This document shows, piece by piece, positions 3,342 to 59,760 of a DNA stretch of 64,000 nt. Each line of letters begins with the position of its first letter. Within the stretch, counting starts at the first letter, position 1. The position numbers and the translations under genes are program-made. The DNA comes from a virus, in IMG/VR virus record IMGVR_UViG_3300035670_000114, positions 1-64,000 of that record; one strand, given 5' to 3'. A model generated the notes under the pieces. That model was not told the DNA's origin. It saw only the letters and a list, made by a program, of their open reading frames with translations, and did no database searches.

Positions 3342-3370
3342 ACCCAATCACAAATCGGAAGCCTAATGCA

Positions 3371-4130: not shown

Positions 4131-4292
4131 ATGCCCTCCACGGCCCGCTCGATCGCCAAGCAAATCATCGCCGAACGCACGGCCGCCGCCAACAGTTGCC
4201 CGCTCTTTTTCGTCGAAGAAATCCGAGTCGACCCCGACACCGGCAAGCTCAAAACAACCATGAAATCTTGCCCACTCAAGACGGAAGACTAA
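4131..4292 (+). CDS. small hypothetical protein upstream of the tape measure
   Basis: A 53-residue protein beginning at ATG 4131, basic and helical at the N-terminus (ARSIAKQIIAERT) with three cysteines. It fills the space between the tail-tube terminator and the tape measure, where other siphophages encode chaperones. Codon usage ends in C like the neighbours, which supports it being real. No family recognised. Confidence 0.6.
   Translation: MPSTARSIAKQIIAERTAAANSCPLFFVEEIRVDPDTGKLKTTMKSCPLKTED
4283..4291 (+). promoter_or_regulatory. late-type promoter element GGAAGACTA
   Basis: Overlaps the stop codon of the preceding small gene and lies 22 nt before the GTG start of the tape measure gene. 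Confidence 0.45.
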
Positions 4293-13272: not shown

Positions 13273-14627
13273 CCGACGTCATTACCACCGTCGTCCAGGT
13301 TTCGATCGCCGCCGGCCAGGCGAAGATCTACAACGGCCGCCTGCGCGTCCCGCCTCGACCGATCTCGGTCCTCCCCCTCCCTCCGAAGGTCCAGCCCAAC
13401 CAGGTCCAGGTTCCTGCAGCGGTTATCTCGACGGCAACCCCCAGCGCCGACGTCCTGCAGTCCTGCGTCCTCCTCAAGCCAATCCCCACGCCGACCCCAG
13501 GGCTCGACCCCATCGTCGACGAGGGAATCATTACGCCGGCCGCCCCGGGGGTCACCTACGCCTCACTAGAGACAATCACTGCGATTGTTGACACGTCCCC
13601 CAACCAGCTAATCGGCTGCATCAACGACGCAAGCGAGAACACCCAAAACCGTCTGAACCTCCTCTTCCCGTCCGCCATCGAAGGTGACGGCGTCGTCGAC
13701 CGCACCAGCACCGACATCTACGTCCTCAGAAGCTCCGTCTGGACGAACGTGGGCCCCACGCCAGGCCCTACCATCGTCTCGACCAACCTGGTGCCACCCT
13801 GGAACCAGATCGTCCCCCTCTACATCACCGTAAGGACGGCCACCTCAATCACCTCGATCGACTACTCGCTGGATCTCCAGACGATCGTCCCGAGCATCAC
13901 AACCCGGGGCTCCATCTTCGTCGAAAGTCGCACCGCAACCGTCGCTCGCTGTCCCTCGATCGGCCTCGATCTCGCTGTCTTCGAGCCCCGAGTCGCCATC
14001 GGCGGCGCCGCCATCTCGCCTGCGGCCCCCGTCCCCCTCACCACCCCCGCGCCCTCCATCAAGGCGGCCTCGATCGCCTACCCGGCGGCCTTCCCCATCG
14101 TCCTATCGACGCACGTCCCGATCGTACCCCGCCTGTCGACGGTCACCACCCCCGACGCACCCGCCGACATCTCGATCTCGACCCTGCCGCCATCCATCAC
14201 CGGCGGCAAGTCCTTCAACATTCCGCCTGCAGTCGTCGCGACCACGCCCCCCGTTCCCGAGATCTCGGCCGCCATCGTCGTCAACGTCCCCCTCACGACA
14301 ATCACCCCGTCGGCCGTCACCCCCCTCGTCGGCGTCAGCGCCACCACCAAGCCTCCAGCCGCTCAAACCACAACGACACCCATCACCCCAGTCCTCCAGA
14401 CGGGCGCCGCCGCCTACCCGCCGGCCGTCCAGATCACCACGACCCCCCGCTTACCCGACGCCCCGCGTCCCGCCACCAAGGTCGAGGTACCCCTCATCGT
14501 GGTCACCACAACTGCTCTCCCGCCCTCGTCCATGGTTGTCGACGAGCTCGCCAACTACTACCGCTCCTGGCCATTCCAGAACTACGACTGGCTGGCGGAC
14601 ATCATGCCCGAAGGCTGGGCGAACTAG
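13269..14627 (+). CDS. Pro/Thr-rich virion protein, tail appendage candidate
   Basis: A 452-residue protein coupled by ATGA overlap to the tail-tip gene. Residues 1-60 are a short beta/Pro segment, 60-220 look like a globular domain, and 225-420 form a low-complexity region dominated by Pro, Thr, Ala, Val and Ile with imperfect repeats of the form TTP-x3-PAP. An aromatic C-terminal cap (YYRSWPFQNYDWL) ends the protein. The extended region could be a stalk holding a tip domain. No enzyme motif is seen. Confidence 0.55.
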   Translation: MTDVITTVVQVSIAAGQAKIYNGRLRVPPRPISVLPLPPKVQPNQVQVPAAVISTATPSADVLQSCVLLKPIPTPTPGLDPIVDEGIITPAAPGVTYASLETITAIVDTSPNQLIGCINDASENTQNRLNLLFPSAIEGDGVVDRTSTDIYVLRSSVWTNVGPTPGPTIVSTNLVPPWNQIVPLYITVRTATSITSIDYSLDLQTIVPSITTRGSIFVESRTATVARCPSIGLDLAVFEPRVAIGGAAISPAAPVPLTTPAPSIKAASIAYPAAFPIVLSTHVPIVPRLSTVTTPDAPADISISTLPPSITGGKSFNIPPAVVATTPPVPEISAAIVVNVPLTTITPSAVTPLVGVSATTKPPAAQTTTTPITPVLQTGAAAYPPAVQITTTPRLPDAPRPATKVEVPLIVVTTTALPPSSMVVDELANYYRSWPFQNYDWLADIMPEGWAN

Positions 14628-14635
14628 GCACACTA
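14627..14635 (+). promoter_or_regulatory. late-type promoter element GGCACACTA
   Basis: Overlaps the end of the preceding gene and ends 19 nt before ATG 14655. Confidence 0.45.
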
Positions 14636-16148: not shown

Positions 16149-16157
16149 GGCATCCTA
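16149..16157 (+). promoter_or_regulatory. late-type promoter element GGCATCCTA
   Basis: Best-consensus late element, ending 20 nt before ATG 16178. Confidence 0.5.
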
Positions 16158-18019: not shown

Positions 18020-18136
18020 ATGATCCAACCCCTCTCCCAATCCGCCAAAGCCCAAACCCAAGCCAACCGCTACGCCTTCCTCGTCCAAGCCAGCAACAAG
18101 CGCCTCCTCGAACAGCTCCTAAAGAAGGTTAAGTAG
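18020..18136 (+). CDS. 38-residue basic helical protein
   Basis: A short frame from ATG 18020 to TAG 18134-18136. It encodes a Gln/Ala-rich helix ending in a Lys/Arg-rich tail (LLEQLLKKVK). Support comes from C-skewed codons like its neighbours and a late promoter element at the standard distance. It may assist capsid assembly given the following scaffold gene, but no function is known. Confidence 0.5.
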   Translation: MIQPLSQSAKAQTQANRYAFLVQASNKRLLEQLLKKVK

Positions 18137-18144
18137 GTATCCTA
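18136..18144 (+). promoter_or_regulatory. late-type promoter element GGTATCCTA
   Basis: Part of the palindromic TAGGTATCCTA (18134-18144), 30 nt before the scaffold gene start. The same 11-mer recurs at 19019-19029 before the capsid gene. Confidence 0.5.
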
Positions 18145-19020: not shown

Positions 19021-19029
19021 GGTATCCTA
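19021..19029 (+). promoter_or_regulatory. late-type promoter element GGTATCCTA before the capsid gene
   Basis: Identical to the scaffold promoter core, including the TAGGTATCCTA palindrome and a following TC. It would give the capsid mRNA an unusually long leader of over 110 nt (to ATG 19155), unlike the other late genes. Confidence 0.5.
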
Positions 19030-20180: not shown

Positions 20181-20189
20181 GGAATACTA
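20181..20189 (+). promoter_or_regulatory. late-type promoter element GGAATACTA
   Basis: Located 22 nt before ATG 20212; an AGGAG ribosome-binding site lies between them. Confidence 0.5.
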
Positions 20190-24678: not shown

Positions 24679-24687
24679 GGAACCCTA
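24679..24687 (+). promoter_or_regulatory. late-type promoter element GGAACCCTA
   Basis: GGHANNCTA match 47 nt before ATG 24735. If the TTG at 24690 were used the element would be too close, which favours the later start. Confidence 0.35.
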
Positions 24688-26222: not shown

Positions 26223-26231
26223 GGCAACCTA
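26223..26231 (+). promoter_or_regulatory. late-type promoter element GGCAACCTA
   Basis: GGHANNCTA match in the gap after integrase, 57 nt before ATG 26289. Confidence 0.4.
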
Positions 26232-26745: not shown

Positions 26746-26754
26746 GGAAACCTA
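26746..26754 (+). promoter_or_regulatory. late-type promoter element GGAAACCTA
   Basis: Starts three bases after the terminator T-tract and ends 22 nt before ATG 26777. Confidence 0.5.
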
Positions 26755-27717: not shown

Positions 27718-27726
27718 GGCAGCCTA
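27718..27726 (+). promoter_or_regulatory. late-type promoter element GGCAGCCTA
   Basis: Ends 22 nt before ATG 27749. Confidence 0.5.
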
Positions 27727-28060: not shown

Positions 28061-28069
28061 GGCATCCTA
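28061..28069 (+). promoter_or_regulatory. late-type promoter element GGCATCCTA before the lysis genes
   Basis: Perfect consensus; 43 nt before ATG 28113. It would place lysis under late control. Confidence 0.45.
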
Positions 28070-33127: not shown

Positions 33128-33161
33128 CCGCCGAAATCAACCCGCCAGGCGGCTCGATCTG

Positions 33162-33360
33162 GTTGCATTTTGCAACCGAGCACGTTGCATTTTGCAACAG
33201 GCATCCGAAAAAACGGTATCACCACGGCACCAAAGCCTGGCAAGCGGTTGCATTTTGCAACTACACACGTTGCATTTTGCAACCAAGGACGTTGCATTTT
33301 GCAACCACACACGTTGCATTTTGCAACAGCACCCCCTGCCGACCTGTTGCATTTTGCAAC
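33162..33360. repeat. seven palindromic iterons, candidate replication origin
   Basis: GTTGCATTTTGCAAC (GTTGCA and TGCAAC arms around TTT) is repeated without mismatch at 33162, 33184, 33247, 33269, 33291, 33313 and 33346. Start-to-start distances are 22, 63, 22, 22, 22 and 33 bp, so the sites lie on nearly the same DNA face. They occupy the divergent gap next to an initiator-helicase operon. Both origin function and autoregulatory operator function are plausible. No coding sequence overlaps them. Confidence 0.9.
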
Positions 33361-34958: not shown

Positions 34959-34967
34959 TGCTAGTAT
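34959..34967 (+). promoter_or_regulatory. extended -10 promoter TGCTAGTAT
   Basis: Good extended -10 match 49 nt upstream of the sigma factor start. Confidence 0.45.
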
Positions 34968-35016: not shown

Positions 35017-35853
35017 ATGCAGTCAAACCATCAGTCCGAGATCACCGCCTGGCTGAACGCCGCTGGTCGCTTCCCCTTGATCCCCCCGGAAGAGATCAAC
35101 CTGATCGCCAGGCGCATCCAGGCGATGCCTGAGTCTCGTGCCCGCCGCAGGCTGATCAACAAGCTCGTAAGCCACAACCTGCGTCTCGTGGTCAGGCTGA
35201 CCAAGACCTACATGCAGGGACACGGCCGCCACCGCTGGGGCAGCATCGAAACCCTCGACTTCCTACAGGTCGGCGTCATGGGCTTGATCCGAGCCGCCGA
35301 AAAGTTTGACCCGGCTCGCGGCTACACCTTCTCGACGTACGCGGCCCACTGGATTCGCTCCACCATAGGCCGTCACAACATCCGCACCATCACCCCCGTG
35401 TACGTGCCCGAATCCGCGTCACGACGGATGGTCTTCTTCGAGCGCAACGGACACATCAAGACCCGGGGCGGCAGCGGCCTGATGCCCGAGCGGCAGATCG
35501 ACCAACTGATCGACAACATCCGCCTGGCCTACAGTTGCGTCTCGACCGACTATCGCATTGACCCGCGCACGACCATCGGCGAGCTAATCCCCGACACCAA
35601 CACCTCCCACGGCACCAACGAGGTCTCCTACACCATCGAGGAGTCGCTTCGTGAGGCCGGCGTGGATCCAATCGGTTGCCAGATCCTGATCCGCAACTAC
35701 GTCATGAGCCAAAGCCTTCAGGTGATCGCCAAGGACCTCGACATGACCGTCGACCAGGTCAGGATCAAGAAGAAGAAAGCGATGAATGTCGCTCGCCGAC
35801 ACCCAGATGCCTTCCAGAACGCCTACACTGAGCTTGTACCAACAGCCCCATAG
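35017..35853 (+). CDS. sigma-70 family RNA polymerase sigma factor
   Basis: A 278-residue protein with a clear sigma region 2: LVSHNLRLVVRLTKTY (about 48-63), then DFLQVGVMGLIRAAEKFDP and YTFSTYAAHWIRSTIGRH (core-binding and -10 recognition). Region 3 is shortened and divergent, and a region 4 helix-turn-helix (LQVIAKDLDMTVDQVRIKKKKAM) is near the end. The region 2 wording resembles cyanobacterial group 1/2 factors, suggesting capture from the host. It could redirect host RNA polymerase to phage promoters. It precedes the SSB gene by 8 nt. Confidence 0.88.
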   Translation: MQSNHQSEITAWLNAAGRFPLIPPEEINLIARRIQAMPESRARRRLINKLVSHNLRLVVRLTKTYMQGHGRHRWGSIETLDFLQVGVMGLIRAAEKFDPARGYTFSTYAAHWIRSTIGRHNIRTITPVYVPESASRRMVFFERNGHIKTRGGSGLMPERQIDQLIDNIRLAYSCVSTDYRIDPRTTIGELIPDTNTSHGTNEVSYTIEESLREAGVDPIGCQILIRNYVMSQSLQVIAKDLDMTVDQVRIKKKKAMNVARRHPDAFQNAYTELVPTAP

Positions 35854-35861
35854 GGGAACCG

Positions 35862-36215
35862 ATGGCCTCAATTTCAATCGCCGGCAAAGTCGTCTGCAAA
35901 GAAGGCACCGCACCGGTGGCACTCAAGACCTTCGACAACGGCGGCACGCTCGCCAAGTTCTCGGTGGTCGACAACGAATACTTCTACGTGAAGGAAGGCG
36001 ACGACCGCGCCGGCCAGTTCTACGAGGTCGAAGTCAACGGCAAGGCCGCCGAGATCTTCGCCGAACGACTCCTGCGTGGCGACCGCGTCGCGGTTCACGG
36101 CCAGCTCGTCCAGCGGGTCTACAACGACAAGACCTACCTGACCGTCAAGAACGCTCGCGTCACCTCCCTGGAGCCCCGACGCGACCAATCCGCTAATCAG
36201 GAAATCCCTTTCTGA
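35862..36215 (+). CDS. ssb: single-stranded DNA-binding protein
   Basis: A 117-residue OB-fold protein: ISIAGKVV, ATLAKFSVVDNEYF-type strands, GQFYEVEVNGKAAEIFAERLLRGDRVAVHGQLVQR and a final NARVTSLEP strand are typical of SSB. It ends in QEIPF, matching the acidic-Pro-Phe tip by which SSBs recruit partners, though with a short linker. It follows the sigma factor and is closed by a terminator. It protects single strands during replication and recombination. Confidence 0.85.
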   Translation: MASISIAGKVVCKEGTAPVALKTFDNGGTLAKFSVVDNEYFYVKEGDDRAGQFYEVEVNGKAAEIFAERLLRGDRVAVHGQLVQRVYNDKTYLTVKNARVTSLEPRRDQSANQEIPF

Positions 36216-36240
36216 CACGCGGTTTTATCGCTTTCGCCCC

Positions 36241-36264
36241 GGCCCCGGTCGGGGCCTTTTCTTT
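36241..36264 (+). terminator. intrinsic terminator after SSB
   Basis: GGCCCC pairs with GGGGCC across GGTC, followed by TTTTCTTT. Confidence 0.88.
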
Positions 36265-36271
36265 GGAGCCG

Positions 36272-36280
36272 TGCTACGCT
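36272..36280 (+). promoter_or_regulatory. extended -10 promoter TGCTACGCT
   Basis: Right after the terminator and 24 nt before ATG 36305. Confidence 0.5.
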
Positions 36281-36304
36281 TGACGGGTCACCACACGGCT
36301 AGTC

Positions 36305-36655
36305 ATGCCCGAGTCACCCGAACTGATCATCAACGAAGAGGCCTTGGCCCTCCTGAAAACCTGGAACGGAGCAAACCAGCTCGAAAACCAGGAAAAGCAC
36401 ACCGCACTGCAGGCCCTTGCCTACTGCCTTGGCCGCAACTACCGCGCCGCCGCCGAGGGAGCCAAGGACGGCGTCTTCACCTTGAGCTTCCGCGTCAAGT
36501 TTGACCGCAACGAGGTCCCGACTGCCATCAAGGCCGTCTCTCGCTGCTCAACCGTGTCGACGGCCGACATCGACCTCACCTGCCCCTTCCCCGACAACGA
36601 AGACGACGCCAGCTCCGAGGCCCAGGCCAACGAAGGCACCCCTTCGCTTTTCTGA
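36305..36655 (+). CDS. hypothetical protein with acidic tail
   Basis: A 116-residue protein. A helical start (EEALALLKTWN, LQALAYCLGRNYRAAAEGA) is followed by a beta pair (FTLSFRVKFDRNEVPTAIKAVSRC) and a strongly acidic end. The fold resembles small DNA-metabolism accessory proteins, but no family is recognised. It has its own promoter after a terminator. Confidence 0.6.
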   Translation: MPESPELIINEEALALLKTWNGANQLENQEKHTALQALAYCLGRNYRAAAEGAKDGVFTLSFRVKFDRNEVPTAIKAVSRCSTVSTADIDLTCPFPDNEDDASSEAQANEGTPSLF

Positions 36656-36722
36656 TCCACTAGCCACCGGGCGACGTCCAACCGGTGTCGCCCACCACTT
36701 ATTCATCCCCTAGATCAAAGCG

Positions 36723-37172
36723 ATGGAGCAAATCGACCCCTACGAGGTCGCCCCCAGTACCGTTGGCGCCCTCTTCGACGACGTGCCACGCCTGACCACG
36801 GCCCTCGTGCGACCGCACGTCATCGCCGGCCTGATTCACCGTGGCGCCATTCGCTATTCGGAAATACTGGCCTCCATCACCCCATACTGCAGTGTCGAAG
36901 ACCTGAAGGTCGGCAACTGGGATCCACTCGAAGGCGACTACTGCGACGACTGCACCCGTCTCGAAAGGCTGCTGGACGAGGTCCTCGGCGAATTCGTTGG
37001 CGCAGGACTGGTGCGCTACAACGAAGAGAAGGAACTCTGGGTCTTGACCGCCAAAGACATCCCCAAGGTCATCTCCTGGGTCTCAGTCCTTGGCGGCCGG
37101 ATGCCCGATCACTTCCTCCTCTACCTCAGCCAACAGCAGACACTGCGCTACAAGCAGAATGATCAAGCGTAG
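36723..37172 (+). CDS. hypothetical protein, possible winged-helix
   Basis: A 149-residue acidic protein with helical segments (ALVRPHVIAGLIHRG, RLERLLDEVLGEFVGAGLV) and a hairpin VRYNEEKELWVL, an order compatible with a winged-helix fold. It has a CDDC pair around residue 75. The next gene overlaps by 14 nt. No family recognised. Confidence 0.55.
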   Translation: MEQIDPYEVAPSTVGALFDDVPRLTTALVRPHVIAGLIHRGAIRYSEILASITPYCSVEDLKVGNWDPLEGDYCDDCTRLERLLDEVLGEFVGAGLVRYNEEKELWVLTAKDIPKVISWVSVLGGRMPDHFLLYLSQQQTLRYKQNDQA

Positions 37173-37398
37173 CCATGCCTCCAAGTCCACCAAACCAAGG
37201 GACCACGAACGGCTGGCCGCTCGACCGACGCCTGTTCGCATCTACGCACGCCACTCAAGCGTCGAGGTCTACCTTGGCTGCGGCTGGAAGAAGGGCAGCG
37301 TGATCTCAAGCGATCGGGACGGCTGCTCCGTCTGGCTCGGCTCGGAGCAGCGCATGACCCGCTGCTTCGACAACCGTAACATCCGTCCAGCCTCCTAA
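37159..37398 (+). CDS. small SH3/KOW-like beta-barrel protein
   Basis: A 79-residue basic protein from ATG 37159. After a Lys/Arg-rich start it shows a five-strand pattern (VRIYARHSSVEVYLG, WKKGSVISSD, GCSVWLG, RMTRCFDNRNIRP) like small SH3- or Tudor-type barrels that bind DNA or protein tails. The overlap with the preceding gene suggests coupling. Function unknown. Confidence 0.5.
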   Translation: MIKRSHASKSTKPRDHERLAARPTPVRIYARHSSVEVYLGCGWKKGSVISSDRDGCSVWLGSEQRMTRCFDNRNIRPAS

Positions 37399-37416
37399 CG
37401 GCCAGCGCCAGCAATC

Positions 37417-37425
37417 TGCTAGACT
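37417..37425 (+). promoter_or_regulatory. extended -10 promoter TGCTAGACT
   Basis: Ends 18 nt before ATG 37444. Confidence 0.5.
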
Positions 37426-37443
37426 CTATCCAAGCCTGCAACC

Positions 37444-37740
37444 ATGGAAGTATCACAAGCCAACAAATTTGTCGGCCAAGACGTGATCATTCGCGTCATT
37501 GCCGGAATCGACTACGTCAGGGACATCCGTTGTCAAATCGTTTCACGAGAAGGCCGCAATCTTTACATTGACATCCTCGGCATGAAGGACTATATCTGGC
37601 TACCGGACGTCATCAGCATCACCCCAGACCCGAACCCTCCTGTCGAGCAATGGGACGGCACCGACGTCGAGCCAACCTTCCGCTTCACGTCCAATGGCGG
37701 CTCCACCACGCCGACAACTCCTTCCAGCCAGCAAGCCTGA
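37444..37740 (+). CDS. small beta-rich hypothetical protein
   Basis: A 98-residue protein with a compact beta pattern (QDVIIRVIAG, IRCQIVSREGRNLYIDIL, YIWLPDVISI) and an unstructured Thr/Pro/Ser tail. The barrel-like pattern is similar to the preceding small protein, and both may be RNA- or DNA-contacting. No family recognised. Confidence 0.55.
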   Translation: MEVSQANKFVGQDVIIRVIAGIDYVRDIRCQIVSREGRNLYIDILGMKDYIWLPDVISITPDPNPPVEQWDGTDVEPTFRFTSNGGSTTPTTPSSQQA

Positions 37741-37750
37741 AGCCCGGCCC

Positions 37751-37759
37751 ACTTAGACT
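37751..37759 (+). promoter_or_regulatory. -10 promoter variant ACTTAGACT
   Basis: Resembles the TGCTAGACT elements elsewhere but lacks the TG; 27 nt before TTG 37787. Confidence 0.35.
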
Positions 37760-37786
37760 CTGTGGTCCGCCAATAGAGTCACGGCC

Positions 37787-38218
37787 TTGAGTCCCACGCA
37801 AGCCGATCCAACCTTTCCGGGCGAGTCCTATGAGCTGCGCGTGCGAATGCCGCTGTGGTCCAAGCAGCGACCGAGGTTTACCCGCGCTGGCCATGCCTAC
37901 AAGAACCCCGCCTACGACCAGGCCTTGAAGGACATGCGAAGCTCGCTGTCCGAGCTGTGGCCGTACCCGCCGATCGACTACCCCATATCGGTCCACCTCC
38001 ACCTTTGCGGCGAAGGCCGAGGCGACCTCGACAACATTGCTGGCTTCATCCTGGACGCCGCAGGCCCCGTCAGAGCCACCAAAAAGAAGGAGGCCCTCCC
38101 TGGCGTCTTGTGGGTCGACGACCGGGTGTCGATCATCAGCCACCTCTCGATTTCCTGGACAAAGGGCGAGAAGGCTGACTCCTGCTGGGATCTGCGAATC
38201 GTTAAACTGAGGCCCTGA
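37787..38218 (+). CDS. rusA: RusA-like Holliday junction resolvase
   Basis: A 143-residue protein from TTG 37787. It has the RusA layout: SKQRPRFTRAGHAYKNPAY near the start, the acidic centre D80/D82 in GDLDN, and D111-D112 in LWVDDRV. RusA enzymes cut four-way junctions during phage recombination and before packaging. Length is normal for the family. It is grouped with the RecE-like exonuclease, 11 nt downstream. Confidence 0.85.
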   Translation: MSPTQADPTFPGESYELRVRMPLWSKQRPRFTRAGHAYKNPAYDQALKDMRSSLSELWPYPPIDYPISVHLHLCGEGRGDLDNIAGFILDAAGPVRATKKKEALPGVLWVDDRVSIISHLSISWTKGEKADSCWDLRIVKLRP

Positions 38219-38229
38219 GCTACGTCGCC

Positions 38230-39111
38230 GTGTCCGCTTCGGTCAGCTACCTCCAGGCCGACCCCTCCTACCGGAAGGACCCTGGGCATGCGCAATCGAG
38301 TGTCAAGCACATCCTCAAGTCGCCAGCGCACTACCAGGCCGAGAAAAAGAAGAAGATCGCCCCAACCCTGACGATGCAGATCGGCACCGGGGCCCACTGC
38401 CTAACGCTTGAGGGCAAGGAGCAATTCGAGAAAGACTTCGTCCTCAAGCCGGATGGCCTGAGCCTGGCGACCAGGGAAGGCAAGGCCTGGAAAGAAGAAA
38501 ACAAGTCGAAGACGATACTCTCGCAAACGGACCAATACCAGTCCTGGGACGCCGTTCACGGCATGGCCGCCGCCCTGCAGGAGCTCGACTGGTTCGACCC
38601 ATCTCAAGCCGACTACCGCAAATTCAACGAAGTCAGCCTGTACTGGCGCTCGGAGGGCCTCGACTGCAAGGCCCGCATAGACAGGCTGCTGCTGTCGGAC
38701 ACTCACGCAACCATTCTGGACGTCAAGAGTACCGACGGCGTCAAGATGGAGGACTTCAGGAAGAAGGTCATCGGTGACTTCAACTACATGTTTCAGGCCG
38801 CCTGGTACACCGACGGCGTCGAGCAATACTACAAGCTGCCGACAAACTTCATCTTCGTCGCCATCGAGCGAACCCCTCCCTACCAGATCGGCATCTTCGA
38901 CATCAGCGACGAGATGATCGACGAGGGCTTCCGTCAGATCAGGCACGCCAGACGACTCCTGAAGCACTGCCTCCAAACGAAAGACTGGGGGCGTCCTCCC
39001 ATCGTCTCCGGCACCCTGGAGCTTCCGCCCTACTACCGTTCGCCACTGGGCGATGCTACACTTGGCTCGTCAATGGAAGCTCTCGAAGAGGCCTTCTCGA
39101 TCCCCGCCTGA
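38230..39111 (+). CDS. RecE-like PD-(D/E)XK exonuclease
   Basis: A 293-residue protein from GTG 38230. The N-terminus (SSVKHILKSPAHYQAE, MQIGTGAHCLTLEG) and the nuclease core (LDCKARIDRLL, then ILDVKSTDGVK with the D-x-K pair, then FNYMFQAAWYTDGV) match exonuclease VIII/YqaJ-type nucleases. It would resect double-strand ends so that an annealing protein can pair strands, working with the candidate at 34133. The end of the gene contains the promoter element for thyX. Confidence 0.82.
   Translation: MSASVSYLQADPSYRKDPGHAQSSVKHILKSPAHYQAEKKKKIAPTLTMQIGTGAHCLTLEGKEQFEKDFVLKPDGLSLATREGKAWKEENKSKTILSQTDQYQSWDAVHGMAAALQELDWFDPSQADYRKFNEVSLYWRSEGLDCKARIDRLLLSDTHATILDVKSTDGVKMEDFRKKVIGDFNYMFQAAWYTDGVEQYYKLPTNFIFVAIERTPPYQIGIFDISDEMIDEGFRQIRHARRLLKHCLQTKDWGRPPIVSGTLELPPYYRSPLGDATLGSSMEALEEAFSIPA
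39054..39062 (+). promoter_or_regulatory. extended -10 promoter TGCTACACT
   Basis: Inside the end of the exonuclease gene, 54 nt before thyX ATG 39117. Confidence 0.35.
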
Positions 39112-39116
39112 CCCAT

Positions 39117-40850
39117 ATGGTGCGACCGGCCACTAGAGACCCACGCTTCCGGGTCGACCTGATTTTCGCCACACCCAATCCCCAGCAGTGCATCTATGCC
39201 GCGATGCACCAGGACTACAGCGAAGGGTTCGTGGCGGCCGACCGCGCCGACTGGCCGGATGAGACCCGCGCCGGCGAAATCTGCGTGAAACGGCTGCTGG
39301 CCGGCGAGCGGGGCCACTACGGCTGCTACTCGGCCGACACCGAGGTCTTGACGGAAGCAGGCTGGACTCCCTGGCCGGACGTGACGACGTCAACAATGCT
39401 TGCTGCCGTCGACATCAGCAGTGGCGCAGTCAACTTTGAAGTCCCAACCGCGATCCAGTGCATTCCCATCAAAGAAGGCGACAGCCTCTACAGTTTTGAA
39501 TCCCAGCGTCTAAGCCTCGCCGTCACGCAAGATCACCGGATGGCCATATCCAGCCGCAAGTCGACCGGATGGAGCCAGTGGCGCTTCGAGCCAGCCTCTT
39601 CTGTAGCCGGCAAAGCTGTTCGCTACAGGCTTGCCGGAAATCTTAAGAAGCGCAGCATCCCCGACGACTGTCCGCAAGGCGTTGATCTCGTCAGTCTATT
39701 CAAGGTCGCCGGCTTCTTCTTCGGCGATGGCTGCCGCAGCCAGTCAAAAGATCCTAAATGCCTCAGATTCCGCTTGCGTCGCGCTCGTAAGATTGCTTAC
39801 CTGAAGAGCTGCGGCTTCGCTGTCAAAGAAACGAAAGGCGATCGGTTTGTTCTCAGAGATGCAACCGTTTCCCGGTGGATCCACAAGCACTTCCAGGCTG
39901 AAGAGGGCAAGCGTGTGCCGTCCTTCATCATGTCTCTTCCTGAGGGCCTGTTTCAAGCATTCGCCGATGGATTGAAAAACAGCGACGGCACAGCCAAGCG
40001 GCAAACGTGGGCATTTGACTCCGTGGAAAAGGCCGCCCTGGACGTCATTCAGGCCGCCTTCCACCTCAACAACCAGGCCGCCTCCTTAACGCTGAACAAC
40101 TCGAACGAGGGAGACATCCACAAGAATCATAAGCCTTGCTGGCGCCTGCACGTCTCGTCTCGCGAGCCCTACGCCCGGGCTGAGGTCAATCAACAAGGAC
40201 GCACTCGCGGAACCGAAAAGCTGATCCCGTACGAAGGCAACGTCTACTGCGCAACTGTCTCAACTGGAGCGCTCCTTGTACGTCGCAACAACAAGCCAGT
40301 GGTTTGTGGGAACTGCCTGGAACATCCCAGTATCACCTTGAACACTGGCTGGTTCCCCCATTCCGTTCTCCAGCAGGCACGAACCCACCGTGTGGGAATT
40401 TCGTTTGATTGTCAAAGTCTGAGATATACTGGAAAGCGTATATCTCAAGTCGCAAATGGAGAGCTAGATGCGGAAGAGGTATTTTACCTGCGACCAGTTG
40501 GCAGTTATAGCGACCGCAAAGGCAAGAAGTATTCCTACACCCAGCAACAGCGCGACATAGACCTTGCTTTATGCCGCAACGCCGCGAGGCGCTACGATGA
40601 ACTCATCCAACTCGGATACGCCGAAGAGCACGCCCGTGGTATCCTGCCGTTCGACTATCGCCAGCACTTCGTGGTGAGCTTCTCCCTGAGAGCCTTTCTG
40701 CATTTCCTGGACCTGCGTGCCAAGCTTGACGCCCAAGAAGAGATCCGCGCCCTCTGCGACCTGATGTGGCCTCACCTGCAGGCCTGGACACCAGAGATTG
40801 CCGCCTGGTACGAGTCCGCCCGCCTTCACAAGGCAAGGCTTGCGCCCTAG
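39117..40850 (+). CDS. thyX: flavin-dependent thymidylate synthase ThyX interrupted by an intein
   Basis: A 577-residue precursor. Extein residues 1-69 and 400-577 join to a 247-residue ThyX. The join restores GHYG-CLEHPSITL, followed by the ThyX signature region ARTHRVGISFDCQSLRY (variant of RHRxxSxNxxSxRY). ThyX makes dTMP from dUMP with FAD and methylene-tetrahydrofolate, as in many cyanobacteria. The insert sits immediately beside a conserved active-site region, a typical intein location. It lies between recombination and nucleotide-kinase genes. Confidence 0.93.
   Translation: MVRPATRDPRFRVDLIFATPNPQQCIYAAMHQDYSEGFVAADRADWPDETRAGEICVKRLLAGERGHYGCYSADTEVLTEAGWTPWPDVTTSTMLAAVDISSGAVNFEVPTAIQCIPIKEGDSLYSFESQRLSLAVTQDHRMAISSRKSTGWSQWRFEPASSVAGKAVRYRLAGNLKKRSIPDDCPQGVDLVSLFKVAGFFFGDGCRSQSKDPKCLRFRLRRARKIAYLKSCGFAVKETKGDRFVLRDATVSRWIHKHFQAEEGKRVPSFIMSLPEGLFQAFADGLKNSDGTAKRQTWAFDSVEKAALDVIQAAFHLNNQAASLTLNNSNEGDIHKNHKPCWRLHVSSREPYARAEVNQQGRTRGTEKLIPYEGNVYCATVSTGALLVRRNNKPVVCGNCLEHPSITLNTGWFPHSVLQQARTHRVGISFDCQSLRYTGKRISQVANGELDAEEVFYLRPVGSYSDRKGKKYSYTQQQRDIDLALCRNAARRYDELIQLGYAEEHARGILPFDYRQHFVVSFSLRAFLHFLDLRAKLDAQEEIRALCDLMWPHLQAWTPEIAAWYESARLHKARLAP
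39324..40313 (+). mobile_element. intein with DOD (LAGLIDADG) homing endonuclease in ThyX
   Basis: Residues 70-399 of the precursor (330 residues). Block A starts with C70 (CYSADTEVL), block B has TQDHR, the endonuclease blocks are VAGFFFGDG and LFQAFADG, block F is NVYCATVSTG, and block G ends with CGN before extein C400. Terminal N399 and the +1 Cys are present, so splicing chemistry looks intact. The penultimate residue is Gly where His is usual, a known but less common variant. The second DOD block contains ADG as expected. Confidence 0.9.
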
Positions 40851-40853
40851 ACT
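40845..40853 (+). promoter_or_regulatory. -10 promoter variant CCCTAGACT
   Basis: Overlaps the thyX stop codon; 22 nt before ATG 40876. Shares CTAGACT with other elements but lacks the TG. Confidence 0.35.
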
Positions 40854-40875
40854 TCACCCAAGCTTGCTGATCCCC

Positions 40876-41451
40876 ATGGCCCCGAAGCTCGTTCTGTTCA
40901 ACGGCCCCCGCCACTCCGGCAAGGACACCGCTGCAGCGAAGTGCGTCGAGCGCTTCAATGCGCTTCACTTCAAGATGTCAGGTCCAATCAAGGCAGCCAT
41001 CAAGGCCACCTTTTCGTTGACTAACGAAGACGTCGAGTACCTGGAGTCCATCAAGACCGAGCCCTGCGACCTCCTATTTGGCAAGAGCTACGTCGACGTC
41101 CAGATCACCTTCAGTGAAAAGTGGGGCAAGAAGCAGTTCGGCGAGCAGTTCTTCGGCAACCTGGCGGTGCGCCACGTCCGGCAACTGCTGGCAGATGATC
41201 AGCGCCCAAGCCCACTCGTGGTGTGCAGCGACTCCGGCTTCTCCCATGAAGCCAAACCGCTACTGAACACCATCTTCGACGTCGAAGACGTCCTGCTTGT
41301 CAGACTCCATCGCCCCGACAAAAGCTTTGATGGCGACAGTCGCGGCTACATCAAGCTCGATGACGTTGCCACCATTGAGGTCTGCAACGATGGCGACATC
41401 GACCTGTTCCACAAGCGAATCGTCGACGTCGTCTCCGTATTCGCCGAGTAG
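40876..41451 (+). CDS. deoxynucleoside monophosphate kinase-like protein
   Basis: A 191-residue P-loop protein. Walker A is in FNGPRHSGKDTA (about residues 8-19). The rest has a lid-like Arg/Lys region and VVCSDSGFSHEA and LLVRLHRPDKSF segments, as in phage dNMP kinases of the T4 gp1 type. It would convert dTMP and other monophosphates to diphosphates, following ThyX in the pathway. ATG 40876 is favoured by the promoter-like element and the immediate P-loop strand. Confidence 0.7.
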   Translation: MAPKLVLFNGPRHSGKDTAAAKCVERFNALHFKMSGPIKAAIKATFSLTNEDVEYLESIKTEPCDLLFGKSYVDVQITFSEKWGKKQFGEQFFGNLAVRHVRQLLADDQRPSPLVVCSDSGFSHEAKPLLNTIFDVEDVLLVRLHRPDKSFDGDSRGYIKLDDVATIEVCNDGDIDLFHKRIVDVVSVFAE

Positions 41452-41470
41452 CCGCGCAGGCGGCTTCTGT
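41450..41470 (+). terminator. weak hairpin terminator candidate
   Basis: AGCCGC pairs with GCGGCT across GCAG and is followed by TCTGT; the T-tract is poor. Confidence 0.35.
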
Positions 41471-41488
41471 CGGCACAATAATGTGCCG
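41471..41488 (+). promoter_or_regulatory. hairpin covering the terminase small subunit start codon
   Basis: CGGCACA pairs perfectly with TGTGCCG across ATAA, and the ATG at 41481-41483 straddles the loop and 3' arm. If 41481 is the start, the hairpin would restrict initiation. If GTG 41505 is the start, AATAAT here would act as a -10 box 24 nt upstream. Confidence 0.45.
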
Positions 41489-42119
41489 AAACTCGCTGTG
41501 CCAGGTGGAATGGAAGGAAGCCAAGCCCCCAAAGCGCACGCCTGGCCCGATCTATAACTTCAGGCGCGGCTACAACCTGTCGAGCTCAGGTAGGCACGAG
41601 ACCGCTGATCAGTACGCGGCCTTCCAGGTCTACCTGAAGCTCAACGGCAACAGAACCTTCATCGACACCGCCAAGCTCTCCGGCTACGACGACAGGACGA
41701 TCGCACGATGGTGCAAGACGTTCTGCTGGGAGTCACGCGCCGCCAGGTGGGACAGGGACCAAATGGCGATCGTCTGGAAAGAAGCCGAGGCCCTCAAGCG
41801 CAACGCACACAAGGAAGCCATCGTCGAGTTCCGCGACGCGGCACAGCGTCAGGCCGAGATGATGTCGAAGGTCTCCGAGGACCTCGTGGGCCTGCTCAGC
41901 AACCGCATCGAAAAGGCCATCGAGAAGAAGGAAGACATCCCCATGGGGATGGTCGCCGGACTCCTGAAGGCGGCCTCTAGCGTCTCCGAACAATCCCGTC
42001 AAGCTTGGGCCAACTCCCTGGGCGTGAACGAACTTCTGTCCGTCGTCGACTCCGACATCCAGCAGGTGCGGGTTGACGACGTCACCCACGACCCGTACGA
42101 ATTCGAGATCGAGGAATAA
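41481..42119 (+). CDS. terS: terminase small subunit
   Basis: A 212-residue protein immediately before the large subunit. An N-terminal Pro/Arg-rich region leads to a helix-turn-helix (FIDTAKLSGYDDRTIARWCKTFCWESRAARWD, about 55-90). A long helical oligomerisation core (95-160) and a C-terminal acidic peptide (VTHDPYEFEIEE) follow. This is the standard plan of phage TerS, which recognises the packaging site. The start is uncertain between ATG 41481 and GTG 41505. Confidence 0.78.
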   Translation: MCRNSLCQVEWKEAKPPKRTPGPIYNFRRGYNLSSSGRHETADQYAAFQVYLKLNGNRTFIDTAKLSGYDDRTIARWCKTFCWESRAARWDRDQMAIVWKEAEALKRNAHKEAIVEFRDAAQRQAEMMSKVSEDLVGLLSNRIEKAIEKKEDIPMGMVAGLLKAASSVSEQSRQAWANSLGVNELLSVVDSDIQQVRVDDVTHDPYEFEIEE

Positions 42120-42125
42120 CCATTC

Positions 42126-43655
42126 ATGGTCAGAAGAATTGGCGACGACTTCCTGGGTCACGCCGCCAGTCAACTCGATCTCGTCCGAGAGGCCAAGGCC
42201 AAGAGGGAGTACGAAAGCGAGAACGGCAAGGAGGTCATCTTCCACCGGTTCATCAAGCAGATCAACCCCAACTACCGCTTCTACAGGTTCCACGGCGAGC
42301 TCGTCAAGCAACTGCAGCTCGTCATCAGTGGCCAATGCAAGAGGCTCATCGTCAGCACGCACCCCAGGATCGGCAAGAGCCTGCTCTCCTCTAAGCTCCT
42401 GCCTGCCGCCTACCTGCTCGCGCATCCAGAGCGCTACGTCGCCATCTGCTCCTACAGCGCCGAGCTGGCCGAGGGCTTTTCCAAGGACGCCAGAGAATAC
42501 TACGAGCAGGCCGGCGGCCGACTGGACCCCAGCAGCAAATCCGTCAACCAGTGGGGCACAACTGGCGGCGGCGGCTGCTGGGCGGCAGGCATCGGTGGCT
42601 CCGTGGTGGGCCGCTCAGCAAGCCTGATCATCGCCGACGACACCATCAAGGGCAGACAGGAGGCCGACAGCGAGGCCGCCATGGACAAGCTCTGGGGCTT
42701 CTACCAGGGCTCTCTCTATACCCGCCTCGAACCCGGGGGCGCCGTCGTGGTGGTGGCCACCCGCTGGACCGAGCTCGACCTGACCGGTCGCCTGCTGGAG
42801 TTGGAGGCCTCCGTCCCCGAAAGCCAGCGAGAAAACTGGACAATCATCGACTGGCCGGCAATCAGCGAGGACTCCGGCGATCGACCACCACTGCCGCAGC
42901 ACTGCAACATCGTCAAAGACTGGCGAGAGGAACCCGGCCTGCCGCTGTGCCCTCAACGCTATGGCGTCGAAGACCTGGAGCGGATCCGTCACGTCGTCGG
43001 CGTCAGGGAGTGGTCGTCACAATACCAGCAACGGCCGGCGCCAATCGGCGGCAACATGTTCAACCCCGAGTGGTGGCAATACTACGAGTCGAGGGATACC
43101 CTGCCGACCATGGATCGCGTCATCATGAGCGTCGACTGCACCTTCACCGACAACAATGATTCCGACTACGTGGTAGCAACCGTCGTCGGGCAGTGCGCGA
43201 CGAAGTTCTACGTCATCGACATGCTGCGCCGCAAGACCGACATCGTCGGCACCATCTCGATGATCATCTCGATGCTGCAGGAGCACTCCATCGACGGCAC
43301 CATCATCGAGTTGGCCGCCAACGGATACGCCGTCTACCAGATGATGAAGACTCGCATCCCCGGCCTGATCGGCTACAAGACCGGCAACAGGCGCAAGGAC
43401 GACCCCAGTCGCTTGGCAGCTATCGTGCCGTTAGTTGAAGCTGGCGACGTCTACCTGCCAGAAAACGTGTCCTGGCTCGACACATTCATCAACGAATTCA
43501 GCCTCTTCCCGGCGGCCAGGAACGACGACATTTGCGACAGCATCTCCATGGCAATCAACTACATGAGTCAGCGCACTCCGCCACAAATTACTCCCGTACA
43601 CTGGGGGCGCTCGTCCGCGCTTCCGAGCCCAGTGGAGCGCAACATGCCCTGGTAA
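42126..43655 (+). CDS. terL: terminase large subunit
   Basis: A 509-residue packaging motor. The ATPase has Walker A STHPRIGKS (K84) and Walker B SLIIADD (D171-D172), with a coupling motif near VVVVATRW. The nuclease domain begins at MSVDCTF (D337), with a later acidic cluster around IIELAANG and NDDICDS. It pumps DNA through the portal and cuts at headful or cohesive sites. Portal is not adjacent but about 6.7 kb downstream, which is unusual. Confidence 0.95.
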   Translation: MVRRIGDDFLGHAASQLDLVREAKAKREYESENGKEVIFHRFIKQINPNYRFYRFHGELVKQLQLVISGQCKRLIVSTHPRIGKSLLSSKLLPAAYLLAHPERYVAICSYSAELAEGFSKDAREYYEQAGGRLDPSSKSVNQWGTTGGGGCWAAGIGGSVVGRSASLIIADDTIKGRQEADSEAAMDKLWGFYQGSLYTRLEPGGAVVVVATRWTELDLTGRLLELEASVPESQRENWTIIDWPAISEDSGDRPPLPQHCNIVKDWREEPGLPLCPQRYGVEDLERIRHVVGVREWSSQYQQRPAPIGGNMFNPEWWQYYESRDTLPTMDRVIMSVDCTFTDNNDSDYVVATVVGQCATKFYVIDMLRRKTDIVGTISMIISMLQEHSIDGTIIELAANGYAVYQMMKTRIPGLIGYKTGNRRKDDPSRLAAIVPLVEAGDVYLPENVSWLDTFINEFSLFPAARNDDICDSISMAINYMSQRTPPQITPVHWGRSSALPSPVERNMPW

Positions 43656-43656
43656 G

Positions 43657-44295
43657 ATGAGACGGATCACGAAATTCCAGCTCACACCCGAGCAACGGGA
43701 TCTCGCGGAGCGCAACATGGATCTAGCCAGGCACCAAGCCTGGATCTACAAGCGCAAAACCGGCATCGAGTACAAGGTGCTCGAAAGCGAAGCCTTCCTG
43801 GGCCTTTGCCAGGCTGCCGCCAAGTACGACATCAATCGCCTGCACGAGCAAACTGGCCAACCTCTCAAGTTCTCGTCCCTGGCGGTCCCCTATATCAGGG
43901 GCAGTATCCTGCATTACATCAGGGACAAGACGTACGCCATGCGTCTGACCTACGAAACCAGGGACATCTGGACGCGAGGCAAGCGCTACCTATATGCCGG
44001 CTTCACCGACCTGGAGGTCTGTGAGCTCCTTGGCATCGAGCTGTCGAAGTGGCAGGAGGCCAAGTCTGCCTGCTCGGGTCCTCCCCTTGAGCTCGCCGAC
44101 CACGCCACGCCCTCCGAGCCCCTTGAGCCCGACGAGGTCGACAACCTGACCATCTTCCGTCAGGATGCCGCCGAACTCCTCTCCAAGCTGACGCCAGCCA
44201 CGCGGCAGCGCCTGGATCGCTTCATGGAGGCCCGGGCCAGTGACGTGCCCAAGACCGTCATCAACGAGTTGCGGCAACTGGTCTTCGGGGGCTAG
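43657..44295 (+). CDS. second sigma-like factor (region 2 containing)
   Basis: A 212-residue protein starting 1 nt after terL. Region 2 is visible: ERNMDLARHQAWIYKRKTG (about 18-36), SEAFLGLCQAAAKYDINR (44-61), then FSSLAVPYIRGSILHYIRDK (72-91). A possible short region 3 and a degenerate C-terminal helix pair (TRQRLDRFMEARASDVPKTVINELRQL) stand where region 4 would be. It resembles group 3 or SigF-like factors more than the first sigma factor. Its linkage to packaging genes makes a late-transcription role attractive. Confidence 0.75.
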   Translation: MRRITKFQLTPEQRDLAERNMDLARHQAWIYKRKTGIEYKVLESEAFLGLCQAAAKYDINRLHEQTGQPLKFSSLAVPYIRGSILHYIRDKTYAMRLTYETRDIWTRGKRYLYAGFTDLEVCELLGIELSKWQEAKSACSGPPLELADHATPSEPLEPDEVDNLTIFRQDAAELLSKLTPATRQRLDRFMEARASDVPKTVINELRQLVFGG

Positions 44296-49436: not shown

Positions 49437-49856
49437 ATGCCAAGGAAGGAGCGCGAATACCGCGCCGAGTCGCACGACCACTACTGCCACGAGGTCCGCG
49501 AAAGGCTCTACCACTGGGAGCGCGACTGCATGGGCATGTATCTTTGCCACAAGGTCGAATTCAGGGAGAGGATCCTACTGATCGAAAGGATTCAATCCTC
49601 CTGGAATCGCCTGGCAAAGGCCCGCAAGCTTCACACCGGCACCGGCTTCTACCTGAACAAGGAGCAGTATGACGCCGCCGTGGAGAAGATGCTAGAGTCT
49701 GGGGCGAATCAGTCAACAGACGGCCATGCTTCTCTCGGACCAGCAGATCGCGCAAAGGGCAGCGGGGGGGATGATAACCCCGTGGGTGCCGAGTCTGATC
49801 CGCCAAGTAGAAGACCCTACAGGCCAATGCTGCAAGGTCTTAAGCTACGGTCTTAG
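49437..49856 (+). CDS. hypothetical protein overlapping dCTP deaminase
   Basis: A 139-residue frame. The first 96 residues are a plausible charged helical protein (RAESHDHYCHEVRERLYHWERDCMG, FRERILLIERIQSSWNRLAKARKL). The last 43 overlap the dCTP deaminase gene in another frame for 131 nt and look disordered (Gly/Ser/Arg/Pro), so the true end may simply be unconstrained. No SD or promoter is obvious. No family recognised. Confidence 0.5.
   Translation: MPRKEREYRAESHDHYCHEVRERLYHWERDCMGMYLCHKVEFRERILLIERIQSSWNRLAKARKLHTGTGFYLNKEQYDAAVEKMLESGANQSTDGHASLGPADRAKGSGGDDNPVGAESDPPSRRPYRPMLQGLKLRS
49690..49698 (+). promoter_or_regulatory. extended -10 promoter TGCTAGAGT
   Basis: Inside the preceding frame, 27 nt before the dCTP deaminase ATG. 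Confidence 0.45.
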
Positions 49857-50322: not shown

Positions 50323-50380
50323 CCGTCAGCTAACTTGCCGGCAGACTAAACGAGGCCGCAAGTGACGGCCCCAAGCTGGC

Positions 50381-52545: not shown

Positions 52546-52554
52546 TGCTACGAT
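52546..52554 (+). promoter_or_regulatory. extended -10 promoter TGCTACGAT
   Basis: Ends 22 nt before ATG 52577 in an otherwise empty gap. Confidence 0.55.
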
Positions 52555-53249: not shown

Positions 53250-53275
53250 AGCGGCAGACTACTTCTGCTATAATC

Positions 53276-55389: not shown

Positions 55390-55611
55390 ATGATTCCAAC
55401 TGACGACCAGGATTCCCTCGACCATGCGATGCTGATGCTTTTCACGGCGAGGTGGTCAATACCGACCGCAGCGGCGCACCTCAGCATGAAAGCAACCGAG
55501 GAATCCTGGAGCCAACTCAAGGCACTATTCGCCGAATACTGCAAAATTCACGGCACGACCTACAAAGAAGAGCACCCCGGGAAGGATTCAAACCTTCGAC
55601 CATCGGATTAG
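55390..55611 (+). CDS. small protein of cyanophage type, 3' end antisense to tRNA-Arg
   Basis: A 73-residue protein with DDQDSLDHAMLMLFTARWSIPTAAAHLSM and ELK/LKALFAEYC features that I associate with small cyanophage proteins of unknown function. The last 13 residues or so (HPGKDSNLRPSD) are only the reverse reading of the tRNA on the other strand, so the gene's end has been extended into the tRNA. Real in its first 60 residues. Confidence 0.6.
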   Translation: MIPTDDQDSLDHAMLMLFTARWSIPTAAAHLSMKATEESWSQLKALFAEYCKIHGTTYKEEHPGKDSNLRPSD

Positions 55612-55645
55612 AAGTCCGTTGCTCTGTTCGCTGAGCTACCGGGGC
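55573..55645 (-). tRNA. tRNA-Arg (anticodon UCU)
   Basis: On the minus strand the sequence folds as a full cloverleaf: a 7-bp acceptor starting GCCCCGG (closing pair G-U), D-arm GCTC/GAGC with the loop AGCGAACA, an anticodon loop CTTCTAA with anticodon TCT, a short variable region, and a T-arm with TTTGAATC. CCA is not encoded. It reads AGA and probably AGG, codons used more in the 35-58 kb genes than in the C-ending late genes. Confidence 0.9.
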
Positions 55646-58060: not shown

Positions 58061-58069
58061 TGCTAGAAT
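58061..58069 (+). promoter_or_regulatory. extended -10 promoter TGCTAGAAT
   Basis: Two bases after the previous stop, 24 nt before ATG 58094. Confidence 0.55.
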
Positions 58070-59362: not shown

Positions 59363-59760
59363 GCCCCCTCGAACCCCGACCAAAGTCCACCGTCCCCTCC
59401 TTGTACGCCAAGCGCCCCAGAGGCCGACTCCCGCTCCCCGACCACGGCCGAAACACTCGCGCCATCGGCGAGTCGATTTGAGAGCGGGCAAGGGAAACGG
59501 GTTCCTCCCTTCCCCACCTACCCACCTCCAGCTATCTAGCTCCTGTAGATTGCTAGTCTACTGTTCATATATCTTCTTTTATATATAAGAACTATCTACC
59601 TATAAAACCTACTTTGGTAAAGGGGGTAGTCTGAAGGGGGAAACCCCTTTGTTGCCGAATTCCGGCATTTCGGGGTAGTGACCCTAGTGGTAGCAAGGCT
59701 TTTCGGCGATTGCCCTTGTCAATCGCCCGTGCTAGAGTTCGCCAAGCAACCGCCCCACTG
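59363..59760. other. 398-bp non-coding region with AT-rich core and orphan promoter
   Basis: No convincing gene is seen on either strand. From 59517 to 59620 the DNA is strongly AT-rich with repeated CTATCTA/TATATA tracts. An extended -10 TGCTAGTCT stands at 59551-59559 with no start codon at the usual distance. An AAGGGG/CCCCTT hairpin lies near 59632-59649, followed by GGGGTAGTGACCCTA (59673-59687). It may encode a small RNA or be a second regulatory or origin region. Confidence 0.5.
59730..59738 (+). promoter_or_regulatory. promoter TGCTAGAGT with -35 TTGCCC
   Basis: The -10 hexamer at 59733-59738 follows TTGCCC (59710-59715) with a 17-bp spacer and ends 22 nt before ATG 59761. Confidence 0.55.

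Follow-up and report, generated by a model that had tools for sequence, protein, structure and literature searches.

The motif TATAAATA marks the late promoters of phage T4, which are short, -10-only promoters read by gp55, a late sigma factor that lacks region 4. The gp36 protein of phage phiEco32 also has no region 4, and directs host core RNA polymerase to single-element middle and late promoters that lack a -35 box and start transcription 6 to 8 bp downstream (PMC8948821). Late promoters of Kayvirus phages of Staphylococcus have a long -10 box, TGTTATATTA, and no -35 (PMC7698491). For P-SS2, a phage of cyanobacteria, its authors suggested a division of labor in 2009, with canonical promoters left to a group 2 phage sigma factor and a specific regulon to one of group 3 (PMC2784084). 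Here we describe two sigma factor genes in positions 1 to 64,000 (the window) of the virus record IMGVR_UViG_3300035670_000114, which spans 86,866 bases. The first, sigma1, occupies 35017-35853 and the second, sigma2, 43657-44295, both on the plus strand. The evidence below suggests that sigma2 is probably the late sigma factor of a group of cyanosiphoviruses, and that it reads promoters of the form GGHANNCTA.

No DNA-level relative of the window phage was detected by megablast among 50,697 INPHARED phage records. It shares its proteins and gene order with the cyanosiphoviruses S-CBS2, S-CRES1-3 and P-SS2, and the order sigma1-ssb ... exonuclease-thyX-terS-terL-sigma2 is common to the window phage, S-CBS2, S-CRES and P-SS2, placing it in this group. 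As had been noticed when only the letters of the window were inspected (the sequence-only reading), sigma2 directly follows terL: terL (42126-43655, plus strand) ends at 43655 and sigma2 begins at 43657, a synteny shared with S-CBS2, S-CRES1-3 and P-SS2. Both sigma genes are present in the annotated genomes of S-CBS2, S-CRES1, S-CRES3 and P-SS2. When IMG/VR was searched by profile, 96 sigma2 relatives were recovered, and 80 of these loci were kept. The single match in 84,980 cellular genomes is on a contig of a metagenome-assembled genome labelled Proteobacteria, and is probably a misbinned phage, not a prophage copy.

Genes were called with a simple in-house caller, and an expectation-maximization (EM) motif finder was applied to their upstream regions. 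GGnAnnCTA was the top de novo motif separately in S-CBS2, S-CRES1, S-CRES3 and P-SS2, with log-likelihood ratios of 73 to 123 versus 31 to 48 for dinucleotide shuffles, and the same core was returned for environmental clades with ~42-57% sigma2 identity. In the window, GGHANNCTA occurs 22 times, compared with 10.3 +/- 3.3 times in shuffled sequences (0 of 100 reach 22), and all but one of these sites are on the plus strand. Across the whole genome, 17 of 23 sites are intergenic, where the intergenic share of the genome is 12% (p=8e-12). An extended -10 element, TGCTANNNT, is similarly found between genes in 17 of its 31 genomic occurrences (p=8e-9). The two promoter classes posited by the sequence-only reading are therefore both real.

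These classes are associated with different genes. With the boundaries between late and other blocks drawn by us from annotation and synteny, leader-spaced sites in five genomes divide into 79 late and 10 other for GGnAnnCTA, versus 2 late and 16 other for GGTAnnMTG (Fisher p=1.5e-10). Among intergenic sites of the window genome, the split is 13 late to 4 other for GGHANNCTA and 0 late to 17 other for TGCTANNNT, the non-late class in this genome having the form TGCTAnnnT. Late-class targets in the window genome include the genes for the major tail protein (GGAAGCCTA, 3357-3365), the tape measure protein (GGAAGACTA, 4283-4291, which is inside a weak small called open reading frame and 22-23 nt before the gene at 4314), the head scaffolding protein (GGTATCCTA, 18136-18144), the major head protein (also GGTATCCTA, 19021-19029) and the portal protein (GGCAGACTA, 50340-50348, upstream of 50381), all on the plus strand. 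Three cyanophages without this sigma2, namely S-CBS3, S-LBS1 and Cr-LKS4, show no enrichment of the late motif.

The agreement of the late and extended -10 classes in spacing and register suggests G-14 G-13 H-12 A-11 n n C-8 T-7 A-6 as the assignment for the late class. Relative to the extended -10 element, G-13, C-8 and A-6 are new in late sites and T-12 is mostly gone (T is retained in 14 of 89); G is present at -15 in only 8 of the 89. In the four relatives the late motif ends a sharply defined 19-26 nt before the start codon, and in the window genome this distance is mostly 20-31 nt. Purines are enriched at the expected +1 position. Such tight spacing could also reflect an element that acts in RNA, for instance a processing site or a translation element at a fixed distance from the start codon, and not a promoter. 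However, at several sites, among them 26746 in the window, 39641 in S-CRES3 and 12421 in S-CBS2, no more than ~10 nt separate the motif from the end of an intrinsic terminator. At the first of these, the late-class site GGAAACCTA (26746-26754, plus strand) directly follows the terminator AGCCCCGG-CCAC-CCGGGGCT-CTTTTGT and is 22-23 nt before the next start codon. Transcription must restart within the ~30 nt after such a terminator, so a promoter is the natural reading. Terminators are no more frequent upstream of late motifs than upstream of controls (20/103 versus 42/220), and we therefore use only the individual cases as evidence. The register shared with the non-late extended -10 class, at similar spacing, and the rarity of the motif before non-late genes also argue against an RNA element, which we regard as highly unlikely.

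No -35 element accompanies the late motif at a fixed spacing, in that nothing is strongly conserved in the 38 bases upstream of it. When variable spacing was allowed, weak EM signals rose above those of shuffles (30 versus 14-24 for W6; 43.5 versus 21-30 for W8), with no coherent consensus. Late genes thus have in front of them a single, phage-specific -10 element and no -35, as in the known class of phage late sigma factors that lack region 4.

The 212-amino-acid sigma2 protein is a SigB/SigF-type phage sigma factor. It matches the PHROG sigma factor family (E 4e-62), and among curated models it scores best with cyanobacterial SigF (E 4e-17) and then with SigB/SigF/SigG; only residues 15-139, corresponding to regions 2 and 3, are matched. 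SigF (PRK07408) and SigBFG were the top models for all five sigma2 sequences scanned, which supports assignment of regions 2-3 to this subfamily. The score against SigB/SigF/SigG is 62.6 bits, below the curated cut-off of 261 expected of a full-length member with region 4. Neither curated models nor comparison with solved chains reveals a recognisable region 4, and the C-terminus is unconserved. The sequence-only reading had given sigma2 a region 2 and a degenerate region 4; the former stands, but region 3 is also recognisable, and region 4 is not recognisable at all rather than merely degenerate. Conservation is ~0.9 in region 2.3/2.4 and in the linker but only 0.3-0.5 beyond residue 160, which leaves no conserved -35-reading helix. 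An AlphaFold2 model built from 51 relatives (mean predicted local distance difference test score, pLDDT, 83; predicted template modelling score 0.48), which replaces a shallow model with a pLDDT of 71, contains helices corresponding to regions 2 and 3; CSGPPLE sits in a linker predicted with low confidence, and residues 165-210 form three short C-terminal helices. Domain 2 of the model superposes on known sigma domain 2 structures with Z scores of ~12 and root-mean-square deviations of 1.2-1.9 A over ~75 residues. The whole-model fold comparison matches sigma factors generally and does not single out SigB. The linker sequence CSGPPLE (residues 139-145; 44071-44091), which is invariant in 85/85 sigma2 proteins, lies where the region 3.2 finger should be. 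Absence of region 4 had been offered as the reason that late promoters lack a -35 box, and this explanation is supported by both the comparative and the structural sequence evidence.

The solved chain nearest to the sigma2 profile is that of Staphylococcus aureus SigB in an open complex (8x6g_H). In SigB, R110, R100 and R97 contact -15G, -14G and -13G, respectively, as double-stranded DNA (PMC11156646). In our alignment R100 corresponds to R89 of sigma2 and R97 to H86, and both sigma2 residues are invariant in 85/85 phage sequences. R110 aligns with residue 99, which is His in 84 relatives and Tyr in the window phage. Thus, sigma2 keeps residues at the positions of the -14G and -13G readers and has a replacement for the -15G reader, and the late motif contains G-14 and G-13 but not -15G. 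This residue-to-base correspondence played no part in finding the motif.

A phage DNA-binding protein might instead read the GG, and recruit the host SigA holoenzyme to late promoters. Phages commonly encode DNA-binding transcription activators. The T4 late system, moreover, needs a coactivator and a sliding clamp (PMC7892883). Yet the GG is fused in register with A-11 and T-7 at a spacing that never varies, and it occupies the position at which a SigB-type factor touches DNA with its region 2.4/3.0. T-12, the hallmark of SigA, is also the base that late sites have largely lost. An activator or appropriator of this kind is accordingly an improbable explanation. Another candidate is a SigF/SigB-type factor of the host, with sigma2 having some other role, since a cyanobacterial SigF of the SigB type exists (PMC2758279). 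Marine Prochlorococcus, however, mostly lack group 3 sigma factors according to the P-SS2 authors (PMC2784084), and the three cyanophages without sigma2 show no enrichment of the motif, so that a host reader seems extremely unlikely.

The remaining candidate is sigma1. This 278-amino-acid protein is encoded in the early/middle block beside ssb, and is a diverged member of the sigma-70 family, of the RpoD/RpoS type, as judged by profile comparison. It matches Pfam Sigma70_r2 (E 2.6e-12; 46.8 bits, cut-off 24), the PHROG family "RNA polymerase sigma factor" (E 3e-34) and the cyanobacterial RpoD-type model TIGR02997 across regions 2-4 (E 2e-26). RpoD- and RpoS-type models are the nearest curated ones, with the cyanobacterial RpoD subfamily ranking first, and the sigma1 family profile aligns with SigA and RpoS chains across regions 1.2-4. 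The open reading frame and profiles bear out the earlier statement that sigma1 has regions 2 and 4; the Pfam region 4 model alone scores under its cut-off. A further suggestion, that sigma1 is a captured cyanobacterial factor, holds as far as its RpoD/RpoS-like character is concerned, but sigma1 is far diverged and common to the whole phage group, and so shows no sign of recent capture.

The sequence-only reading left open which of the two factors reads GGHANNCTA. If it were sigma1, then sigma2 would read another class or merely modulate polymerase. The cores of the two promoter classes are similar enough that either factor could be adapted to the late one, and sigma1 accompanies sigma2 in every record tested (18/18). 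Co-occurrence therefore cannot separate the two, and phylogenetic profiling was dropped because no record with just one of them was found. Other observations favor sigma2. The late motif is constant, but the region 2.4/3.0 surface of sigma1 differs from clade to clade (top-residue frequency 0.37-0.61). In the window phage, sigma1 has Ile where SigB has R100, its -14G residue. The retained region 4 of sigma1 would predict a -35 element, and the sigma2 gene itself sits behind the extended -10 class that sigma1 or a host sigma factor would read. We consider it unlikely that sigma1 is the late reader. We also asked whether sigma1 covaries with the middle-class base at -13, but the counts were too small; for covariation between the stringency of A-6 and an insert at sigma2 residues 64-70, the motifs of different clades were too alike to tell.

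Sequences upstream of the sigma genes are consistent with a cascade in which sigma2 precedes the late genes. Of 67 distinct regions upstream of sigma2 in relatives, 27 contain GGTAnAMTG (0.1 expected) and none contains the late class, as such a cascade predicts, and none of the regions upstream of sigma1 in relatives is of the late class. Autoregulation of sigma2 through the late motif was considered and rejected on the same count, and because GGTAGACTG, upstream of sigma2, belongs to the non-late class (T-12, G-6).

Taken together, the genes, the motif classes and their assignment to genes, the spacing, the family-wide conservation and the residue-to-base correspondence, all read directly from sequence, make it probable that this phage group uses sigma2 as its late sigma factor. 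From them we infer the following scheme of core binding, register relative to +1, promoter recognition and timing. Early and middle genes, including those for sigma1 and sigma2, would use the extended -10 element TGnTAnnMT, in the form TGCTAnnnT in the window genome and TGGTAnAMTG before sigma2 in relatives, which would be read by a host sigma factor, by sigma1, or by both. Once made, sigma2 would associate with host core polymerase and start transcription at single-element promoters G-14 G-13 H-12 A-11 n n C-8 T-7 A-6. Its region 2.4 helix, with R89 and H86, would read the two G-C pairs as double-stranded DNA, like S. aureus SigB, and it would need no -35 box, having no region 4. Late transcripts would start ~14 nt downstream of the first G, leaving leaders of only ~14-20 nt. 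Host sigma (and sigma1) would thus act first and sigma2 next, followed by expression of the structural genes, and the earlier idea that a phage sigma factor switches host polymerase between promoter classes is supported by comparative and structural sequence evidence.

Several observations weigh against this interpretation. The replacement of R97 by His in sigma2 is not conservative, and neither is the alignment of F86, a residue of the SigB A-11 pocket, with Leu75. At residues 99-101 of region 3.0 (43951-43959), the window phage has Y-E-T in place of the H-[KR]-M found in nearly all 84 relatives, and yet its late motif retains GG. The three C-terminal helices of the sigma2 model may represent what is left of a region 4, still able to hold the beta flap. 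In the window genome alone, de novo EM ranks the extended -10 motif gCTAnnnT first, with the GG motif alongside. Under a loose spacing rule with permuted motifs as the control, enrichment of the late motif is weak, with 15 of 200 permutations reaching the value of the window genome and 12 of 200 that of P-SS2. Finally, the three cyanophages that served as controls are not close relatives.

A broader account can be proposed, although we consider it somewhat less likely than not. A cyanophage lineage may have captured a SigB/SigF-type factor, which lost region 4 and became an obligate late factor for a 9-bp, -10-only promoter with double-stranded GG contacts and a CTA end. It would operate in a three-step host/sigma1/sigma2 cascade in a family that infects picocyanobacteria, with the invariant CSGPPLEL linker as a specialised sigma finger.

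Additional sites of both classes are found on the plus strand of the window. Those of the late class are GGCACACTA (14627-14635), GGCATCCTA (16149-16157 and 28061-28069), GGAATACTA (20181-20189), GGAACCCTA (24679-24687), GGCAACCTA (26223-26231) and GGCAGCCTA (27718-27726). Extended -10 sites of the early/middle class are TGCTACGCT (36272-36280), TGCTAGACT (37417-37425), TGCTAGAGT (49690-49698 and 59730-59738), TGCTACGAT (52546-52554), TGCTATAAT (53266-53274) and TGCTAGAAT (58061-58069), and TGCTAGTAT (34959-34967) lies upstream of sigma1.

Some other features were noted as well. The inverted repeat GTTGCATTTTGCAAC is present in seven copies, mostly with 22-nt spacing, at 33151-33360, in the divergent intergenic region between a helicase operon on the minus strand and early genes on the plus strand; the array is a candidate operator array or set of replication-origin iterons. 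The ThyX gene (39117-40850) encodes a product of 577 amino acids, of which only the outer parts fit the ThyX profile. An insertion of ~325 amino acids between GHYG and CLEHPS starts with CYSADTEVLTEAGW and ends with NNKPVVCGN before C, which are intein hallmarks, and is a probable intein in thymidylate synthase. A single tRNA-Arg (TCT) is encoded on the minus strand at 55572-55645, and possibly serves codons that are rare in the host or marks an attachment site. In the record of the cyanophage Cr-LKS4 (OQ625504, 37526-39093), two features are annotated as CRISPR arrays.

The proposed system resembles, and differs from, each of those described previously. Like phiEco32 gp36, sigma2 is a phage sigma factor without region 4 that is matched to single-element promoters lacking a -35, but the gp36 motif is tAATGTAtA and not GGHANNCTA, phiEco32 has one sigma factor versus two here, and the likeness is one of function. 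It shares with T4 gp55 the absence of region 4 and a short, -10-only late promoter; T4, however, requires the coactivator gp33 and the sliding clamp gp45, and sigma2 retains a SigF-like region 3. Kayvirus late promoters likewise combine a long -10 box with the lack of a -35, but motif, host group and presumed sigma factor all differ. S. aureus SigB and cyanobacterial SigF align with sigma2 in regions 2-3, with -14G and -13G readers at the positions of R89 and H86 and a GG-led -10, whereas these cellular factors also possess region 4 and use a -35 element; SigB reads -15G as well, and the phage motif lacks -15G but adds C-8 T-7 A-6. P-SS2 has the same two sigma genes in the same order as the window phage, but in the accessible part of its description the group 3 factor is given no motif or gene class (PMC2784084). 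The motif, its restriction to late genes and the residue match are added here.

The late promoter class and its assignment to sigma2 appear to be new, as no published report of GGnAnnCTA was found in the largely open-access literature searched. The 2009 suggestion for P-SS2 becomes a concrete prediction, and for the whole cyanosiphovirus group there is now a predicted late promoter that can be searched for, together with a named factor and contact residues, so that late promoters could be marked in metagenomic contigs. As a minimal sigma factor without region 4, sigma2 may also be useful for testing -10-only recognition by a SigB-type protein.

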